IMG/VR virus record: IMGVR_UViG_3300033143_004977 | Coordinates: 1 to 59,757 of that record | Length of the DNA: 59,757 nucleotides | From: a virus | Strand: one strand, 5' to 3' | Part shown: in pieces, positions 8,439 through 46,460 of the stretch | Layout: each line of letters starts with the position of its first letter | Position numbering within the stretch: the first letter of the stretch is position 1 | Program-made: the position numbers and the translations under genes | Notes under the pieces: generated by a model | Told to the model about the DNA's origin: nothing | Database searches by the model: none | The model's input: the letters and a program-made list of their open reading frames with translations, nothing else

Positions 8439-8467
8439 TTTACAAAGTTAAAAAAGTATAGTACAAT
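8439..8467 (+). promoter_or_regulatory. phage promoter (TTTACA-17-TACAAT)
   Basis: TTTACA at 8439-8444 and TACAAT at 8462-8467 are 17 bases apart. The start codon of the next gene lies only seven bases downstream of the -10 box, so its mRNA would be leaderless or nearly so. Confidence 0.65.
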
Positions 8468-8473
8468 ATAACT

Positions 8474-8668
8474 ATGGTCGATAAACGAAAAAATAAAAAA
8501 ACGAAGGAAGAAATTGAAAAATTAAATGAATGGCGAAAAGATAAAGAAAAAGTAGCTCTAGCCAACAAAAGAATGGCAAAATCAAAAGTGTTGTATCATC
8601 TTAAAAATCTTGAAAAACGAAATAAACTACCACCTAAATCTAAACCGCATATAATAATTATAGAATAG
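8474..8668 (+). CDS. small very basic protein
   Basis: The 64-residue product is Lys/Glu-rich and helical with a long basic stretch in its first half. It ends with a hydrophobic IIIIE tail. Its promoter leaves almost no leader. It may bind nucleic acid, but no family is recognised. Confidence 0.6.
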   Translation: MVDKRKNKKTKEEIEKLNEWRKDKEKVALANKRMAKSKVLYHLKNLEKRNKLPPKSKPHIIIIE

Positions 8669-8793
8669 TAATAAATTAATTCATTCATAATAATCAAGTG
8701 AATATTCTAAAAATTTATTTTGCCAGGGCAGTTGTCGCATTAGCGAAATGTTGAAGCAGGAATTACAATTTATTTTTTAATTTTGTAAATCAA
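8669..8793 (+). other. 125-base noncoding stretch with weak structure
   Basis: No gene fits here. The clearest local feature is a small hairpin, TCGC-ATTA-GCGA near 8738-8749, inside a more GC-rich stretch (about 8722-8764) flanked by A/T tracts. AAAATT and AATTTT arms further out could close it. This could be another small RNA, but the pairing is much weaker than in the neighbouring elements. Confidence 0.3.
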
Positions 8794-9012
8794 ATGGAAA
8801 AAGAACTTATGTCTGCCAGAGATGTCTGGTTGAGTAAAAAAATTCATTGGATCACAACTTACAAAATTGTGCTAAAATACATCAGTGAAGACTATGCTGA
8901 CATATTGAAGCCGATTATAAAAGGTCATAAATCAGGAAAACGTTATTTTGTGAAACGAGAAAATCTTGATAAGTTTATTGCAATGTTTGAAGCAAATGAA
9001 CTTGATAAATAG
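8794..9012 (+). CDS. excisionase-like helix-turn-helix protein
   Basis: The 72-residue protein begins with a helix-turn-helix-like segment (LMSARDVWLSKKI) and ends with KSGKRYFVKRENLDKFI. That pattern is characteristic of the wing and last helix of excisionase/MerR-type small DNA-binding proteins. It probably binds DNA as a regulator. No integrase is present in the window, so true excisionase function is not supported. Confidence 0.6.
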   Translation: MEKELMSARDVWLSKKIHWITTYKIVLKYISEDYADILKPIIKGHKSGKRYFVKRENLDKFIAMFEANELDK

Positions 9013-9014
9013 CC

Positions 9015-9111
9015 AGGAGAGGCCCAAAAATTCTCAAGAGGTGGTTTATATCAACTTTGCAGTTTAAAGCCCTCTCCTTTTACGAAAAGATGGTAGAAAC
9101 CACCTTTTGAG
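9015..9111 (+). ncRNA. H-type pseudoknot RNA 1
   Basis: Two long helices interlock. Helix A pairs AGGAGAGG (9015-9022) with CCTCTCCT (9071-9078). Helix B pairs the 15 bases at 9033-9047 (CTCAAGAGGTGGTTT) with 9097-9111 (AAACCACCTTTTGAG), with a single G-U. The order A, B, A', B' defines a pseudoknot. A further pairing, ATCAACT (9050-9056) with AGTTGAT (9110-9116), would compete with helix B. The element starts three bases after the stop of the HTH gene. No coding frame is evident. Function unknown. Confidence 0.65.
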
Positions 9112-9152
9112 TTGATTTTGTTTGATAGAATTGTCGATAATTTTGTGAAATG

Positions 9153-9181
9153 TGTACAAAGTTAAAAATATGTGTTAATAT
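9153..9181 (+). promoter_or_regulatory. phage promoter in front of pseudoknot RNA 2
   Basis: TGTACA at 9153-9158 and TAATAT at 9176-9181 are 17 bases apart with TGT before the -10. Transcription would begin around 9187-9189, at the 5' arm of the second pseudoknot. Confidence 0.65.
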
Positions 9182-9186
9182 ATAAA

Positions 9187-9300
9187 CATGCAAGAAAATA
9201 AAGTATCACGATTAAAAACTTGTATACTTAATCCTGGTGGAACTAATGGTTTTACCAGAAGTGAGGTCGTGATACACCTTATTTTCCCACCAGGATTAAA
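9187..9300 (+). ncRNA. H-type pseudoknot RNA 2
   Basis: Helix A combines GAAAATAA (9194-9201) with TTATTTTC (9279-9286) and GTATCACGA (9203-9211) with TCGTGATAC (9267-9275), 17 bp with a small internal loop. Helix B is 13 perfect pairs, TTAATCCTGGTGG (9228-9240) with CCACCAGGATTAA (9287-9299). The 3' strands of A and B abut with no linker, allowing coaxial stacking. CTGGT (9234-9238) and ACCAG (9254-9258) could form an alternative hairpin. A promoter sits directly upstream and no ORF is present. The chance of 30 complementary pairs in this order is low. Confidence 0.75.
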
Positions 9301-9331
9301 TATATAAGTTTTTTAATTATTAATTGATATT

Positions 9332-10288
9332 ATGAGATATACTATTGTTATCAATCAATTTGCAATAGAACATCATAAATTGGGATTAACTATTGAAGAA
9401 GTTGTTATTCTTGATTATTTATATTGGTTATGTAAAAGTGATAATATTAAATTAATTCGATTAAATGTTGATGATTTAGTATATACGTGGTTTGATTATA
9501 ATTATTTTTTAAAACAAAATCCATTAATACATTGGAAATCAAAAGGATGTCTCACTACAAGATTATATAAATTAGAAAAAGAAGGTTTTATTAAAACAAA
9601 AATATCAGGTGATTATAGTAATCGGAAATATGTTACAACTTTGTCAAAAATAGAATTAATATACGGCAACGAACATAATAAAAAAGTGAATGAAAAAATA
9701 ATAGAAAACGAAAAATGTGAATGGTGTAATAATACAATACTGCCATTAGTAAATCATCATTTTCCTATATCATCTGCTCGACATGGTACAAAAACAGTTA
9801 AAATTTGTACAGCGTGTCATACAATATATCATAATACTGATACAACATTAACTGCAGAACAACGAAAACAATATACTGTTTCTAAAGTTAAACAGATGTT
9901 GTTTCCACCTATTCATCTAGATGAATCTATTATAATAGATAATAATAATAACAATAAGAATAATAATACTATTAATATATCTAAGACTTTACCACATAAT
10001 TCCATCTATAAATTATATCTGGAAAAAATAAATTCAAAAGCTAGACTAACTCCAGGTTCTATAAAGAAAATACAAACCAGACTTAAAGAATATTCTCCAG
10101 AAGATTTAAAAAAAGCTATTGTGAATTTTTCCAGAGATACGTGGTGGATGAAGAATAACGCGCATCGCGGAGTTGCCTGGTTTTTTCACACAGAAGACAG
10201 AATTGATCAATTTTTAAATCTTAAAGAATGTTCAAAAAAAACGAAATATTCTGAATACGACGAAGGGACTATTACTCTTAACGATTAA
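9332..10288 (+). CDS. replication initiator-like protein with internal HNH-type zinc motif
   Basis: The 318-residue protein has a winged-helix-like N-terminus (about 1-110), typical of phage replisome organisers. A compact zinc/HNH-like segment follows (about 130-165: CEWC, NHHFPI, CTACH). An Asn-rich linker (about 200-215) leads to a C-terminal helical domain (about 220-300) resembling the helicase-loader-interacting part of such proteins. It is followed five bases later by a DnaC-like loader and then a primase-helicase, so it likely starts replication. The HNH-like segment inside an initiator is unusual and may be a zinc-binding spacer rather than a nuclease. Confidence 0.6.
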   Translation: MRYTIVINQFAIEHHKLGLTIEEVVILDYLYWLCKSDNIKLIRLNVDDLVYTWFDYNYFLKQNPLIHWKSKGCLTTRLYKLEKEGFIKTKISGDYSNRKYVTTLSKIELIYGNEHNKKVNEKIIENEKCEWCNNTILPLVNHHFPISSARHGTKTVKICTACHTIYHNTDTTLTAEQRKQYTVSKVKQMLFPPIHLDESIIIDNNNNNKNNNTINISKTLPHNSIYKLYLEKINSKARLTPGSIKKIQTRLKEYSPEDLKKAIVNFSRDTWWMKNNAHRGVAWFFHTEDRIDQFLNLKECSKKTKYSEYDEGTITLND

Positions 10289-10292
10289 ATAT

Positions 10293-10895
10293 ATGAAAAA
10301 TGAATTTGATCCTGATATTAGAAAACTGATTGAAGAAAGAATACCTGCTAGATTCGCTCATGCAAAAATATCTGAAATTAATAAACAGATCTATGATTAT
10401 TTGCTTCAAAAAAGATTTACTAAACCACATTGCAAAGGGTTGTTCTTATATGGCAAAGTTGGAGCAGGAAAAACATACACTGTTTGTGCATTAGCAAAAC
10501 AGTTGTTAGCAAATGATTATGATGTTCGTATTTTCAATTTACCCGGATTATTAAATATCATTCGAAGCAGTTTTAAAAAAGAAAATACATATGATGAGCA
10601 ACACGAACAAACGACAACTGCTTTTGTCCATGATATGAAAGATATTGAAAAACTAATCAATTTAGAAATTTTAATCATTGATGACATTGGTAAAGAAAAA
10701 CCATCTGCATGGGTTGCAGAAATTCTTTATTATTTGATTAATACTCGTTATGAGAAAATGCTAACTACTATTTTTACAAGCAATTTAAAGTTATCTGAAC
10801 TTGCTGAAAAAATAGAAGACTCTAGTCTAGTATCAAGAATAAAAGAATCGTGTGAAATATATCATATTAACACTAACGATAAAAGAATACAATGA
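10293..10895 (+). CDS. DnaC-like helicase loader (AAA+ ATPase)
   Basis: The 200-residue protein has a Walker A (YGKVGAGKTYT, about residues 51-61) and a Walker B (ILIIDDIGKEKPS), followed by a sensor 1 motif (TIFTSNLK). This is the DnaC/IstB-type AAA+ arrangement. The family loads the replicative helicase onto DNA, here probably the primase-helicase at 11285. It starts five bases after the initiator stop and overlaps the next gene by four bases. Confidence 0.85.
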   Translation: MKNEFDPDIRKLIEERIPARFAHAKISEINKQIYDYLLQKRFTKPHCKGLFLYGKVGAGKTYTVCALAKQLLANDYDVRIFNLPGLLNIIRSSFKKENTYDEQHEQTTTAFVHDMKDIEKLINLEILIIDDIGKEKPSAWVAEILYYLINTRYEKMLTTIFTSNLKLSELAEKIEDSSLVSRIKESCEIYHINTNDKRIQ

Positions 10896-11266
10896 TATAC
10901 AAACTTAAACAACTAAAATGGTCATTACAACGTCTTATCCGTGGATATGGTGATGATGACCTATGGGGATTTAGTTACTTCGTAACAATGAAATTGAGAA
11001 AACCCTTTAAAGCATTTGTTAGATACCAGAAAAAACACGGTATGGGATGTCCACCTGAATTGTTTGATAGAAAGAATGAGAACGAATGTCATAAATGGAT
11101 TACTATTCTAGAAAAAATAGAACTCGCGTTTGATCTGGATTATGAAGATTGCATAGGTTCTGATAAGTATTTCAAAAAATCTATAGATCAACGTTTAAAA
11201 GATTCAAAAAAAATAAAAGAAGGATTCGAATTGTTTGGAAAGTACTATATGTCTTTTTGGGATTGA
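10892..11266 (+). CDS. conserved phage protein of unknown function
   Basis: The 124-residue protein has an N-terminal basic helix followed by RGYGDDDLWGFSYF, a signature I associate with widespread small phage proteins of unknown role. The rest is helical with aromatic residues. The gene overlaps the loader stop (ATGA) and lies immediately before the primase-helicase, so a replication-linked role is possible. Confidence 0.6.
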   Translation: MIYKLKQLKWSLQRLIRGYGDDDLWGFSYFVTMKLRKPFKAFVRYQKKHGMGCPPELFDRKNENECHKWITILEKIELAFDLDYEDCIGSDKYFKKSIDQRLKDSKKIKEGFELFGKYYMSFWD

Positions 11267-11284
11267 TATATTTAAATACAAAAA

Positions 11285-13003
11285 ATGCCAACAAATGATG
11301 TCAAATATTATTTAGATCGCCAGGGCTGGGAATATCACACTACTGGAGATCAATATTGTGTAAAAATATGTCCATTGTGTGGAGATAATCGGTATAAATT
11401 TTATATCAATTCAAAAAATGGACTTAATGATTGTAAAATATGTGGATGGACGGGAAACTTATACCAGTTGCAAGCGAAGCTTGGTGGTCTTAATGATATT
11501 ACTTCAGTAACTGAAATGATTTCAAAAAAATTCAAACCATTGAATAATGCTCTCGTTGAAAAATGTATTGAAGATTTAAAAAATGATCCTAATGCATTAA
11601 ACTATTTAAAAGAAAGGGGATTTACAGATGAAATTATCACTCATTTTAAATTAGGAGTTGAAAATACTTGGATAACAATTCCTCATTATCAAGATGAAAA
11701 ATTATGGAATATCAAAAAAAGAAATTATATTGAGAAAGAATTTATTAGAATAGCTGGACAACCAACTATTCTTTTTAATATCGATAACATCAGAACAGAT
11801 AAACCAACGATAGTACTTGTTGAAAGTGAAACAGATACTATTGCTGCATATCAATTAGGCATAAAAAATGTTATTGGATTAACAGCAGGCGCAGAAACGT
11901 TTGCTCCAAAATGGATTCCGTTTTTCAGACAATTCAAAAAAGTGTTTGTCTGTCTGAATTCTGACATGGTTGGTCAAAAAGGAGCTTATCGTTTAGCAGA
12001 AAAAATCGGATTTGATAAATGCAGGAATGTTATTCTGCCAACAAATGATGTTAATGATTATTTGCAAGAATATACTTCTGATGATTTTTTAAACGAACTT
12101 AGCAAAGCTAAACAATTTAGTTTAAAAAGCATAACATCAATGTCTGATTATATTGATGAAATCGATATGTGGCTTGATGACGATGGAATGTTAAATGGAT
12201 TGACATTACCGTTTCCCCAGTTAAATACATTTCTTTCAGGATTGAAAAAAGAAGATCTTATTATTATTTCAGGTCCAACAGGTATTGGTAAAACAACATT
12301 TAATTTGAATATTCTATATGATCTTCTCAAAAACGATCATAGATGTCTTGGTTTTTTTCTGGAAGGGAAGTTAATGTATTATATTATGAGAATGATGTCA
12401 ATGCATACACGACTGGAATTAGATAATATGCGAAAAGATGAAGACAAATGGATGAACGTCAAAGAAGAGTTTGCAGAAATGCCTATGTTTTTTTATTCAG
12501 GTAGTCAGTCAGATTTGAATTTTCATAAGTTACGAGATTTAATGTCTGTTGCTGTTAAGTTATATGACATAGAATACGTGATGATTGATAATCTCCAGAG
12601 ATTGATTAAAAGTTCGGGTGACGTCGTTAATGAAACAAGTGCAGCTGTTGCAGAATTAAAAAGTTTAGCAACCGATTTAAAAATACCTATTGTTTTAATT
12701 AGCCACGTTCGAAAAACTGAAAGAGGCGTCAAAAGAGTGACAATGAATGATGTTAAATCAAGTTCAACTATTTCTCAAGATAGTGATATTTTTCTAATGT
12801 TATGGGATAATAAAAAACCTAGTGATGAAGAAAGTGATATTATTTTAACAATTGAAAAAAACAGAATGGGTGAAGGAGGAAAAGATATTGAAATGATTTT
12901 TGAAAAAAAGATTGCAATATTTCGAGAAAAAATAGAAGAAGTCGACAAGAAGAAAAAATCTAAAGTAGTTAGTAAAAAATTAAAAGTAATACTCGAAGAT
13001 TAG
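11285..13003 (+). CDS. bifunctional primase-helicase (T7 gp4-like)
   Basis: The 572-residue protein has an N-terminal zinc ribbon (CPLC at about 30 and CKIC at about 56). A TOPRIM-type primase core follows (VLVESETDTIAA around 178, with a later Asp motif LNSDMVG). The C-terminal DnaB-type helicase has a Walker A GPTGIGKTTF and a Walker B MIDNLQ. It would unwind the fork and synthesise primers. It follows the initiator and loader genes in the same direction and completes the replication start module. Confidence 0.9.
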   Translation: MPTNDVKYYLDRQGWEYHTTGDQYCVKICPLCGDNRYKFYINSKNGLNDCKICGWTGNLYQLQAKLGGLNDITSVTEMISKKFKPLNNALVEKCIEDLKNDPNALNYLKERGFTDEIITHFKLGVENTWITIPHYQDEKLWNIKKRNYIEKEFIRIAGQPTILFNIDNIRTDKPTIVLVESETDTIAAYQLGIKNVIGLTAGAETFAPKWIPFFRQFKKVFVCLNSDMVGQKGAYRLAEKIGFDKCRNVILPTNDVNDYLQEYTSDDFLNELSKAKQFSLKSITSMSDYIDEIDMWLDDDGMLNGLTLPFPQLNTFLSGLKKEDLIIISGPTGIGKTTFNLNILYDLLKNDHRCLGFFLEGKLMYYIMRMMSMHTRLELDNMRKDEDKWMNVKEEFAEMPMFFYSGSQSDLNFHKLRDLMSVAVKLYDIEYVMIDNLQRLIKSSGDVVNETSAAVAELKSLATDLKIPIVLISHVRKTERGVKRVTMNDVKSSSTISQDSDIFLMLWDNKKPSDEESDIILTIEKNRMGEGGKDIEMIFEKKIAIFREKIEEVDKKKKSKVVSKKLKVILED

Positions 13004-13061: not shown

Positions 13062-14119
13062 ATGAAAAGAACAATTAAATTTACGTTAAAATCAACGAAT
13101 ACGAATAAACTTAAGAAACTTGCGGGATTGAGAAAAGAATATGTTAATGCAGTAAATTTTTATATTAAACGACTTGTTATACAAAAAAAGTATATCTTGT
13201 CAGATCAAGAAGTTAAACAATTCGAATCAAAATTGTCTTATGGTTTTAAACAATGTGCTTATAGACAAGCAGAAAAAATCTGGAAAACTTGGAGAAGAAC
13301 TTATAAAAAGAATTCTAATATACCAAAATTTAAAGGAAGTATAATTTTAGATCAGAGATTCGTAACATTTGACAAAAGTAAAAATAGTTTTGATTATTGG
13401 ATAAAAATATCCACTTTAGAAAAAGGCAAACGTGTTAGCATTCCTTTAAATAGTTATGAATATGCTAATGAATATTTTAAGAGTTGGAAATTAGTTAATG
13501 GATGTAGATTGAAAAAGATTAACAATAATTGGACATTGTATTTAACTTTTGAAAAAGAAACACCTGTTTTAAAGAAAGACGGAAAGAAATTGGGATTGAT
13601 ATTGGAATAAAAAAATTAATGACTACTTCTAATAGAAGATATTATGGCAAAAAAATTGAAAATTTATTGGATAAAATTCAAAGAAAACAACAAAGTTCGA
13701 AAACATTTGATAGAGCATTGAAAGAACGAAATGAATATATCAATCGAGTCGTTAAAGAATTACCATACAATCGATTAAAAACAATTGTTATTGAAGACAT
13801 AAAAGATCTTTTTAGAATTTCTAAAAAGAAAAGAAAATTACGAAAAATACAAAGATCAAAATATCAACGATGGGTTTATGCTTATCTATTTGAAAGAATA
13901 AAACAACTGACAGAAGCAACTGGCGTCCATGTTGTGTCAGTCAATCCAGCTTACACTTCACAAAAGTGTAGTGAGTGTGAGTTTATCCACAAGTTAAATA
14001 GGAAAGGTGAGAACTTCTTTTGTAGGAATTGTGGCTACAAATCAGATGCTGATTTTAATGCATCTAAGAATATTCTTCAATCTTATTTAACGCAGGAGCT
14101 TATTCTTCCCTGCAAGTAA
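13062..14119 (+). pseudogene. tnpB: TnpB-type RNA-guided nuclease, interrupted by a -1 frameshift
   Basis: Two adjacent frames together make one IS200/IS605-type TnpB. The first (13062-13610) is the N-terminal recognition part. The second contains the RuvC nuclease: Glu of RuvC-II (IVIEDIKDL), a CxxC-x-CxxC zinc finger (CSECEF and CRNCGY) and the RuvC-III Asp (DADFNAS). RuvC-I (GIDIGIKK) appears intact if one base is re-read near 13593, where A AAG AAA occurs, a possible -1 slippery site. All catalytic residues therefore survive. No TnpA transposase is nearby. It may be a decaying element, a frameshifted but working gene, or a sequencing slip. Confidence 0.8.
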
Positions 14120-33893: not shown

Positions 33894-35735
33894 ATGACGA
33901 ATAAAAAAAATGTCGAATCTAATATCAATGACGCAATTGAAGAAATAATACGAAAATATGGAAAAGAATCAATAACAACGGGTAAGACTTCTAAAAATAT
34001 TGATATTGAAACGATACCAACTGGCTCTATTGGACTCGACAAAGCATTAGGTATTGGAGGAATTCCTAGAGGAAGAATAATAGAAATTTTTGGAGATGAG
34101 TCATGTGTAGATCAAAATACTTTTGTACAATATTCGACAAGACATAAAAATGGTAAAAAAATTAGTAATCATGGTGGATCAATTAAAAAATTATATGAAA
34201 ACTTTCATAAGATAAAAACATCAGATGGTCGTAGAATGCGACATTCTAAAACGAATAAAAATATTGATTTTTATGTTACTTCAATTAATACTGAAGACAG
34301 AGTTATTTTAAATAGAATCATAGATGTTGTAAAATGTGGTAAAAAAGAATGTTTTACAGTAATAACAAAATCTGGTAAAACAATTCAATGTACATTAGAC
34401 CATAAATTTTATATAGGTAATAATAAGTTTGTTAAATTAGAAAAATTAAAGAAAAATGATGTAATATATGTTCATAATAAAAAACATTATGCTGGTCATA
34501 AAAAATATAATCGAGACACAGATGAAAGAAAAGAATTTTTAGTAAAATATCATCCTTCTAAACATATTAAAAAAGTTGGAAAATTTATATATTATAAAGT
34601 CGGTACTTCTCGAATAGTTTATGAAGCTTACTTAAATAAACTTTCGTTTGAAAAATATGTCTATATATTAAATAATGAAAACGAAGAAACCATTGACAAA
34701 TTTAAAACTCTTTCTTCTGCTGATACTATTCACCATATTAATCATATTCCAACAGATAATAGACTTGAAAATTTAAAACATATGACTGTTTCGGAGCATA
34801 TGTCATATCATGCATTTTGTAATAATAACAATCATCTTCGATTTATAACATCTAAAGATACTATAAAAAGTATAAAAAAAGCAGGTTTATTTGAAACGTA
34901 CGATATTAAATGTTTATCACCATTTAATAATTATATTGCAAATAATATAGTCGTACATAATTCAGGAAAAACAACTTTATCATTACATATTATCGCAGAA
35001 GCACAGAAACAAGGATTAGTCTGTGCTTTTATTGACGCAGAACAAGCATTATCATTGCCTTATGCAGAACAACTTGGAGTAAATATTGATAAATTATTAG
35101 TATCAGTACCAAATAGTGGAGAAGAAGGATTAGATATAACTGAAACATTAGTTAAATCAAAGAAAATTGGTTTAATTATCATTGATTCTGTTGCAGCATT
35201 AACACCCCAGGCTGAAATAGATGGTGATATGGGTGCACGCCATATTGGACTTCAAGCGAGACTTATGTCTCAAGGGCTAAGAAAACTTACAGCAATTGCT
35301 TCTAAAACAAACACTACTATTATTTTTATTAATCAAACTCGCATAATGATTGGGATGGTATATGGTGATCCAACAACTACAACAGGTGGTGTTGCTTTGA
35401 AATTTTACACAACGATCCGAATTCAAGTTAGAAGATCTGCTAAATTAAAAGAAGGAGATGATATAATAGGAAACAGAATAAAGATCAAAATAGCAAAAAA
35501 TAAAATATCTGCTCCATTCAAAACACTGGAATATGATATTATATTTGGAGAAGGTATTTCAAAAGTATCAGAAGTTATCAATCTTGGCTTAGATTACAAA
35601 ATAATAACAAAAAAAGGCAATTCATTATATTTTAATGAAGAAAAACTAGGTGGTAGTTTACAAAAAACTAAAGAATATTTAAAAACTAATCCAAAAACAG
35701 TTAATAAAATTATTACTTTGATTCAAGCAAAATAA
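33894..35735 (+). CDS. recA: RecA recombinase containing an intein
   Basis: After removal of the intein the protein has about 327 residues. It begins with a short N-terminal helix, then IPTGSIGLDKALGIGG and the P-loop GDES/SGKTT, which is split by the intein. Later come IIIDSVAALTP (Walker B), a MSQGLRKL segment and FINQTR (loop 2 region). It would catalyse strand exchange for replication and repair. Its first codons resemble the remnant at 33294. The C-terminal domain is short, as in other phage RecA proteins. Confidence 0.9.
   Translation: MTNKKNVESNINDAIEEIIRKYGKESITTGKTSKNIDIETIPTGSIGLDKALGIGGIPRGRIIEIFGDESCVDQNTFVQYSTRHKNGKKISNHGGSIKKLYENFHKIKTSDGRRMRHSKTNKNIDFYVTSINTEDRVILNRIIDVVKCGKKECFTVITKSGKTIQCTLDHKFYIGNNKFVKLEKLKKNDVIYVHNKKHYAGHKKYNRDTDERKEFLVKYHPSKHIKKVGKFIYYKVGTSRIVYEAYLNKLSFEKYVYILNNENEETIDKFKTLSSADTIHHINHIPTDNRLENLKHMTVSEHMSYHAFCNNNNHLRFITSKDTIKSIKKAGLFETYDIKCLSPFNNYIANNIVVHNSGKTTLSLHIIAEAQKQGLVCAFIDAEQALSLPYAEQLGVNIDKLLVSVPNSGEEGLDITETLVKSKKIGLIIIDSVAALTPQAEIDGDMGARHIGLQARLMSQGLRKLTAIASKTNTTIIFINQTRIMIGMVYGDPTTTTGGVALKFYTTIRIQVRRSAKLKEGDDIIGNRIKIKIAKNKISAPFKTLEYDIIFGEGISKVSEVINLGLDYKIITKKGNSLYFNEEKLGGSLQKTKEYLKTNPKTVNKIITLIQAK
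34104..34961 (+). mobile_element. intein with HNH homing domain in the RecA P-loop
   Basis: The insertion begins with Cys71 (CVDQNTFV) and ends with VVHN before Ser-Gly-Lys (286 residues). Block A Cys, a block B-like TLDHKFYI and the terminal His-Asn with a following Ser fit protein splicing. In the middle IHHINHIPTDNRLENL is an HNH_3-type homing nuclease motif, close to the motifs in the free-standing genes at 33540 and 45790. Insertion at the ATP-binding loop makes RecA inactive until splicing. The intein reads through without frame breaks. Confidence 0.9.
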
Positions 35736-37584: not shown

Positions 37585-37613
37585 TTTACAAATAGTTAAA
37601 AGTATGGTATAAT
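37585..37613 (+). promoter_or_regulatory. phage promoter for the structured RNA, tRNA-Pro and rtcB
   Basis: TTTACA (37585-37590), 17 bases, TATAAT (37608-37613), TGG before the -10. Its position gives a start near 37620, just before the 20-bp outer helix of the RNA. Confidence 0.85.
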
Positions 37614-37628
37614 ATAGATACAGTTAAA

Positions 37629-37812
37629 TAAGTTTCTGGATTGGGGGTTGATGTTAATAATCCCTACTCAGGATAAACATATGGTGCAGCATCTAAAGTG
37701 TGAATCCAGTGGACACCAAGAAAAATACTAAAAGCAGAGTTGCAGTGTCTTAGAGGTATCGTTGGAGATAGCTACCAACAGCTGAGTCCTCTACCCCCAA
37801 TTTAGAAACTTA
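37629..37812 (+). ncRNA. large structured noncoding RNA, about 185 nt
   Basis: The ends pair over 20 bp: 37629-37648 (TAAGTTTCTGGATTGGGGGT) with 37793-37812 (ACCCCCAATTTAGAAACTTA), two G-U pairs and no gap. Inside, AGAGG (37752-37756) pairs with CCTCT (37788-37792) around a hairpin GTTGG (37761-37765) / CCAAC (37775-37779). An alternative pairing, CTGGATT (37636-37642) with AATCCAG near 37707, competes with the outer helix. A consensus promoter is directly upstream. Length recalls 6S or other phage ncRNAs, but I recognise no family motif. It lies before a tRNA and rtcB. Confidence 0.75.
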
Positions 37813-45699: not shown

Positions 45700-45709
45700 A
45701 TAAATAGTT

Positions 45710-45768
45710 GAGACAGCAACTATTTTTTATACGACCCTTGAGGAGCTGTCTCTCCAATGGGGTCTTTT
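45710..45768 (+). promoter_or_regulatory. attenuator-like leader of the homing endonuclease gene
   Basis: GAGACAGC (45710-45717) can pair with GCTGTCTC (45745-45752). GACCC (45733-45737) can pair with GGGTC (45760-45764), followed by TTTTAT. The second stem extends as a long hairpin (GACCCTTGAGGAG with CTCTCCAATGGGGTC) that would be an intrinsic terminator and is incompatible in part with the first helix. The two might form a pseudoknot or a switch. Confidence 0.5.
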
Positions 45769-45789
45769 ATATTATTAAAAATTAAATAT

Positions 45790-46326: not shown

Positions 46327-46425
46327 ATTAAAAAATTGAAGCGGAGAGGCAAGCGGAGGGACTTGCTCTCCTAAAAGGAGGTTGGGGAAATTCCCCACTT
46401 CAATTTTCTAACTAATGATCCTAAT
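46327..46425 (-). ncRNA. small structured RNA, minus strand
   Basis: Read on the minus strand, AAAATTGAAG (46407-46398) pairs with CTTCAATTTT (46341-46332), 10 bp. Inside are TGGGG / CCCCA, CTCCT / AGGAG and GCAAG / CTTGC hairpins. GGAGAG and CTCTCC give an alternative longer stem. The helix ends in a T6 tract. A consensus promoter lies directly upstream and no ORF is present. It does not fold as a tRNA. Confidence 0.7.
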
Positions 46426-46431
46426 ACTTAT

Positions 46432-46460
46432 ATTATACCATATTTTTCTATATTTGTACA
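46432..46460 (-). promoter_or_regulatory. minus-strand phage promoter for the small RNA
   Basis: On the minus strand TGTACA (46460-46455), 17 bases, TATAAT (46437-46432), TGG before the -10. It matches the plus-strand promoters in the spacer as well (AAATAT-AAAATATGG). It points to the structured RNA, away from the tail gene that ends at 46464. Confidence 0.8.

Follow-up and report, generated by a model that had tools for sequence, protein, structure and literature searches.

A predicted H-type pseudoknot with conserved place and shape before the replication genes of probable Patescibacteria phages: a candidate cis-acting control element

Introduction

The leader of T4-type gene 32 mRNA contains an H-type pseudoknot that serves as a translation operator upstream of a replication gene; it consists of two short coaxial stems of related sequence and is bound by gp32, which the downstream gene encodes (PMC3014915). 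Structured leaders also precede the replication genes of plasmids such as R1, ColE2, and REx-C of Pseudomonas. In some of these a short, non-conserved leader ORF is coupled to rep and stem changes are compensated; the fold is a different one, an antisense RNA comes from the opposite strand, and it is translation of the leader ORF, not its product, that sets rep expression (PMC5304414). The ToxI and CptI antitoxin RNAs of type III toxin-antitoxin systems are H-type pseudoknots that can occur in tandem, with a short repeat, a 25-nt core, and conserved bases, and they lie beside a toxin gene (PMC8860590).

Very little is known about gene control in the phages of Patescibacteria (CPR bacteria), and our literature search found nothing on it. 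Patescibacteria are very difficult to grow in culture, and the locus described here offers a way into the replication control of their phages. Like the gene 32 leader, it is a phage pseudoknot just upstream of a replication gene, in five phages with the same strand and gene order. It differs from that leader in its helices of 8 + 11 and 27 bp, in the absence of sequence conservation, and in the gene that lies downstream. Pseudoknotted control elements ahead of replication genes are of a known kind, T4 gene 32 being the example; the literature we found does not cover this architecture and size or a conservation that is free of sequence, and open-access papers yielded no description in Patescibacteria phages. 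Searches led by sequence would easily miss a shape that is conserved without its letters, and this may explain the lack of a description.

Results and Discussion

Source phage and host

The window, meaning the whole stretch of DNA analyzed, is a linear IMG/VR virus record (IMGVR_UViG_3300033143_004977) of 59,757 bases with 29% G+C, and its genes include tail, terminase, DNA polymerase, primase-helicase, RtcB, and UvsX genes. Identities of 64% and 48% between the terminase and terminases on Patescibacteria contigs (AMOR_Bin_143; a Magasanikbacteria bacterium) make a host from the Patescibacteria very probable. Shine-Dalgarno sequences were missing from nearly all genes of the window, and several genes are leaderless, beginning at or beside the expected transcription start with a constant spacing to the -10 box. 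A leaderless start at a fixed -10 distance was also seen in a relative, L016 (TATAATATAAACATG). The promoters form a sharp class (TTTACAAA...GTATGGTATAATATA) with ten occurrences in the window; a search of IMG/VR for the exact pattern returned none. All 6 phages examined that have the HTH operon possess a strong promoter before the gene block upstream of the HTH gene. Table 1 lists the features of the locus.

Table 1. Features of the locus in the window and the corresponding knots of four relatives
Feature	Position or record	Strand	Description
Early-operon promoter	8439..8467	+	Strong phage type; K-rich gene, HTH gene, element 1, and onward
HTH gene (excisionase-like)	8794..9012	+	Constant left neighbor; 51-63% identical in relatives
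Element 1, helix A	9015..9022 / 9071..9078	+	8 bp, perfect
Element 1, pairs outside B	9025-9029/9116-9120	+	5 bp
Element 1, helix B	9033..9047 / 9097..9111	+	15 bp, one G-U
Promoter of element 2 and replication operon	9153..9181	+	TGTACA-17-TAATAT
39-codon ORF	9188..9307	+	AUG at predicted TSS; spans element 2
Element 2, helix A1	9194..9201 / 9279..9286	+	8 bp; 3' arm abuts B'
Element 2, helix A2	9203..9213 / 9265..9275	+	11 bp, two G-U
Element 2, helix B	9214..9240 / 9287..9313	+	27 positions, one mismatch
Element 2, loop 2	9241..9264	+	4-bp hairpin at 9247-9257
Element 2, internal loop of A, 3' strand	9276..9278	+	ACC (NCCG in three relatives)
Replication-initiation (O-like) gene	9332..10288	+	phrog_18020, E 1e-4; first gene after element
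DnaC/IstB-like ATPase, small ORF, primase-helicase	10293..13003	+	Replication genes
L024 knot	3300035698_021303		Arms TGAACCAC/GTGGTTCA; B 29 positions
L026 knot	3300008255_000286		Near-identical to 3300025018_003259; arms GACAAA+CCCATC/GATGGG+TTTGTC; B 31 positions
L028 knot	3300002220_006704		Identical over 6.1 kb to 3300000558_003121; arms TATGCAA+ACATCTA/TAGATGT+TTGCATG; B 29 positions
L054 knot	3300031227_003983		Arms GAGTCAA+TAGGATA/TATCCTA+TTGACTC; B 24 positions

Architecture of the two elements

An initial sequence-only reading of the window had reported two neighboring elements with crossed helices in the order A, B, A', B', and both were confirmed when the coordinates were derived again. 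The helices of 8 and 15 bp reported for element 1 held, whereas the linker-free 3' strands did not, as its linkers L1, L2, and L3 are 10, 23, and 18 nt long. The reverse was found for element 2. Here A' and B' are indeed separated by 0 nt, as are A and B, but the helices reported as 17 and 13 bp were incomplete: A is 8 + 11 bp, and the 13 bp were only the upper part of a B of 27 positions, which comprises 9228-9240/9287-9299 and 9214-9226/9301-9313 on either side of a C-A mismatch at 9227/9300. The 3' arm of B terminates in a U run. The two elements have no common repeat unit, in agreement with the earlier statement that their sequences differ and that they are not a simple duplication.

When both strands of the 59.7 kb were scanned for crossed pairs in which each helix is strong, the result was exactly elements 1 and 2 on the + strand, and on the - strand the complement of element 2 plus one weaker pair. 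The knot scores of the two elements were reached in none of 300 dinucleotide shuffles. Minimum-energy z scores were -7.4 for element 2 and -3.7 for element 1, from programs that cannot score the helix crossing, and nowhere in the window was the folding energy more extreme than in the region 9201-9320. Searched with 4227 Rfam models at the curated threshold, the window yielded only two tRNAs, with no convincing sub-threshold match at the locus; on that point, the earlier suggestion of a new RNA class agrees with Rfam.

Same place and shape in relatives, with other sequences

A search of annotated phages with the DNA of the window gave no match, single-protein searches of IMG/VR gave only identical copies from sister samples, and a search for the HTH protein in 380 Patescibacteria genomes found just the one already known. 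Relatives were instead reached by way of the terminase match to patescibacterial contigs, followed by HTH-protein and terminase alignments. Four further lineages had the order SNF2 helicase, basic gene, HTH gene, and then replication genes. The DNA between the HTH gene and the next gene in these four bears no resemblance to that of the window, yet each contains a crossed-helix pair, and the junction knots of all five lineages scored above 300 of 300 dinucleotide shuffles. Letters change between phages and the pairing stays, which is the covariation that the sequence-only reading had proposed looking for. The comparison of relatives is one of structure, and its weight rests on the shuffles and the genome-wide scan.

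The tight form, in which A' abuts B', was found in element 2 of the window, L024, L026, the first element of L028, and L054; element 1 of the window and the second element of L028 are of the looser form. A search of both strands of these contigs and of related ones, 619 kb in all, found the tight form with a B score of at least 32 at the five junctions and at one prophage-edge site. The latter (L020, 5890-5975) was left out, as one of its arms is the 3' arm of a neighboring terminator hairpin. Each phage genome thus has one tight copy in the sequence covered, and element 1 is a looser version of the knot with no promoter of its own; the two elements of the window are therefore unequal members. 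Of the proposal that they are two equivalent, free-standing noncoding RNAs, the structured A-B-A'-B' form stands and the equivalence does not.

Terminase-only relatives had no element within the parts of their sequences covered, and neither did the primase relatives L069, L065, and L070 show a convincing one (positions 149-247 of L065 were borderline). L016 and L061 have the HTH gene without the element, and other genes follow it there, which indicates that the element travels with the replication module rather than with the HTH gene. The gene after the element is a replication gene in the window, L026, L028, and L054; in L024 it is an inserted HNH gene, followed by rep. The knot is kept in L054 although the primase gene directly follows and rep and dnaC are absent. 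In the window, the O-like gene has no Shine-Dalgarno sequence and contains an internal HNH/zinc-ribbon-like segment at about residues 118-180. The HTH gene has a weak Pfam HTH_17 match in one member of the group. Nowhere is the next gene one for a single-stranded DNA-binding protein that could bind the knot, as gp32 does; it encodes an O-like replication protein, an HNH protein, or a primase.

The + strand fold was more stable than the - strand fold for all 7 elements, which favors an RNA in the same sense as the replication genes. It also counts against a DNA element, such as a replication origin or a single-strand hairpin site beside the replication genes, as would otherwise suit one tight copy per genome (in the sequence covered) adjoining those genes. 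The GC skew changes direction near 2 kb and 43 kb rather than near 9 kb, and there is no iteron-looking repeat array. We consider a DNA element very unlikely. A count of G-U versus A-C pairs (15:2) was discarded as an argument for RNA because it is biased by helix finding; the bias-free count is 4:2 and proves nothing.

Promoters and the case for action in cis

The promoter reported just before the 5' arm of element 2 was recognized as a TGTACA-17-TAATAT sequence that ranks 9th genome-wide when left out of its own matrix, with transcription expected to start near 9188. A free small RNA from 9188 to about 9313, acting in trans as a regulator, sponge, or protein partner, would make good use of this strong promoter, of the U run that ends B', and of the compact length of about 126 nt. 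It would also have company, since at least one further small RNA with a terminator seems to be encoded by the phage (46460, - strand). Only 2 of the 5 phages, however, have a promoter at the element (the window and, more weakly, L026), and none comparable was recognizable before the knots of L024, L054, or the first element of L028. Judged from these sequences, then, it is for the most part an element acting in cis, placed between cistrons or in a leader, rather than a conserved free noncoding RNA with its own promoter, and in 3 of the 5 phages it lies inside an operon, contrary to the proposal of a free-standing RNA. Its place is always in cis before the replication genes, and the sequence conservation expected of a partner RNA is absent. 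The suggestion that the elements are RNA partners of a toxin or nuclease found no linked gene of that kind among the protein matches nearby; the constant neighbors are the HTH and replication genes. Altogether, an RNA acting in trans appears quite unlikely.

The type III antitoxin RNAs share the H-type pseudoknot and the possible tandem arrangement with this locus, but here the elements are about 120 nt and unlike each other, with no toxin gene recognized among the neighbors. There is no common unit as in the tandem repeats of ToxI, CptI, and TenpI, and the sizes differ. Neighboring genes matched replication or HTH proteins or nothing, and never a ToxN-like protein. With regard to the antisense control of plasmid rep leaders, no strong phage-type promoter was found on the - strand near 9.0-9.4 kb; there were weak 9/12 consensus matches at 9327-9358.

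The reading frame across element 2

An ORF of 39 codons spans element 2, and the structure could be that of a small protein gene of 39-41 codons whose mRNA is folded by chance. Its AUG lies exactly at the predicted transcription start, like that of the leaderless gene at 8474, and in the window its codon use falls within the coding range. In three phages the knot is spanned by an ORF of 39-41 codons that stops 2-24 nt short of the next start. Against this, codon use of the comparable frames in L024, L026, L054, and L028 was at the 0-5th percentile of real genes, the frames are 41, 41, 23, 34, and 5 codons long with mutually dissimilar peptides, and the 39-codon peptide of the window has no PHROG match. 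The leader ORF is absent or short in other phages. The ORF is probably not a conserved peptide, its reading as a coding gene being rejected on the codon use in the relatives, and we regard a small protein gene as highly improbable. By analogy with plasmid rep leaders, ribosome entry at the 9188 AUG could still be relevant.

Fine structure common to the knots

Four features, noticed after the fact and in few sequences, recur: an internal loop that splits helix A in 4 of the 5 tight elements (5' AAA, 3' NCCG or ACC; the 5' side in element 2 of the window is a single A as paired here), a single 1x1 mismatch in B whose 5' base is a pyrimidine (6 of 7 elements), an AUG at or just before the foot of A (6 of 7), and a small hairpin in L2 (four elements). 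U runs follow the tops of B' in the first element of L028, L054, L024, and element 1 of the window; the loops are 28-54 nt, and the consensus scan called none of them. L026 has no usable U tract. Low G+C alone may be the cause of the U-rich B' arms.

Helix B is 24-31 positions long in 5 of the 7 elements, or about two turns or more. Such a helix could be an RNase III processing site, or a stabilizer that blocks exonucleases, separating early mRNA from replication mRNA. Intercistronic RNase III sites are present in the early mRNA of phage T7, and the structured intercistronic RNA in an early operon is a point of likeness; the T7 sites are simple hairpins with internal loops and have no crossed helix. 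The element is likewise intercistronic, and both patescibacterial genomes examined have RNase III genes. Processing would, however, leave unexplained why the loop has to pair upstream, with A1' directly against B'. This reading is unlikely.

A candidate control element of the replication operon

We give an even chance to a cis-acting RNA element in the early operon of Patescibacteria phages that controls transcription and/or translation into the replication genes. Such an element would probably be an attenuator or a barrier. What the sequences show is complementarity kept in place and shape without its letters, the operon setting, and the preference for the + strand; that the element regulates, and by what mechanism, is inferred from these. 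The predicted fold runs from A1 through the internal loop and A2 to the long B, and the loop of B would carry A2' and A1', with A1' abutting B'. Since the strands would be synthesized in the order A, B, A', B', helix A:A' could form as soon as A' is made and before B' exists. B', which is often U-rich, would then pair with B inside the A:A' loop, closing a knot that resembles a terminator or blocks ribosomes. The balance might shift if the loop, or the foot of A where the AUG lies in 6 of 7 elements, were bound by a ribosome, a protein, or another RNA. Calculated alone, helix A:A' has -8 to -17 kcal/mol and B:B' has -22 to -36, so B should win at equilibrium, and A may mainly affect timing or close the knot. 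Its most likely use would be as a gate that RNA polymerase or ribosomes must pass to reach the replication genes. The architecture itself raises the question of how a nascent transcript comes to form a linker-free knot from helices of about 20 and 27 bp. A bolder version is that the element is a new RNA class, recognizable by topology and not by sequence, with long interlocked helices (up to 8 + 11 and 27 bp), no bases between A and B or between A' and B', and one tight copy per genome. It would work as a co-transcriptional switch, with expression of the replication genes set by which of the crossed helices forms first; we hold this to be possible but doubtful.

Other observations in the window

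A small RNA of about 100 nt was predicted at 46330-46432 on the - strand, with a strong promoter at 46460 and a T6 terminator. It contains ACCTCCTTTTAGGAG, which is anti-Shine-Dalgarno-like. It can pair with loop 2 of element 2 over 14 nt (3 G-U), above 300 shuffles; several RNA pairs were tried, and the match is a lead only. Its pairing with helix A of element 1 (8 nt) was not above the null. The leader of an HNH-type gene at 45704-45770 contains a pair of terminator-like hairpins with 8 nt of complementarity between their loops (GAGACAGC/GCTGTCTC), which may make it a kissing-loop attenuator. At 37585-37812, a strong promoter is followed by a highly structured RNA of 190 nt (z of -5.3 versus mononucleotide shuffles) upstream of a small ORF, tRNA-Pro, and RtcB. 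It has no Rfam match, and crossed pairings are available to it (CTGGATT/AATCCAG with TTGGGGGT/ACCCCCAA).

The sequence at 8731-8763, GTTGTCGCATTAGCGAAATGTTGAAGCAGGAAT, also occurs in L061 right after the end of a TnpB-like gene; it looks like an orphan TnpB guide-RNA scaffold with no adjacent tnpB. A tnpB-like gene in two frames lies behind a strong promoter at 13062-14119 and is possibly a remnant or a case of programmed frameshifting. The UvsX-like recombinase gene at 33894-35735 is interrupted by an HNH-containing segment, a probable intein.
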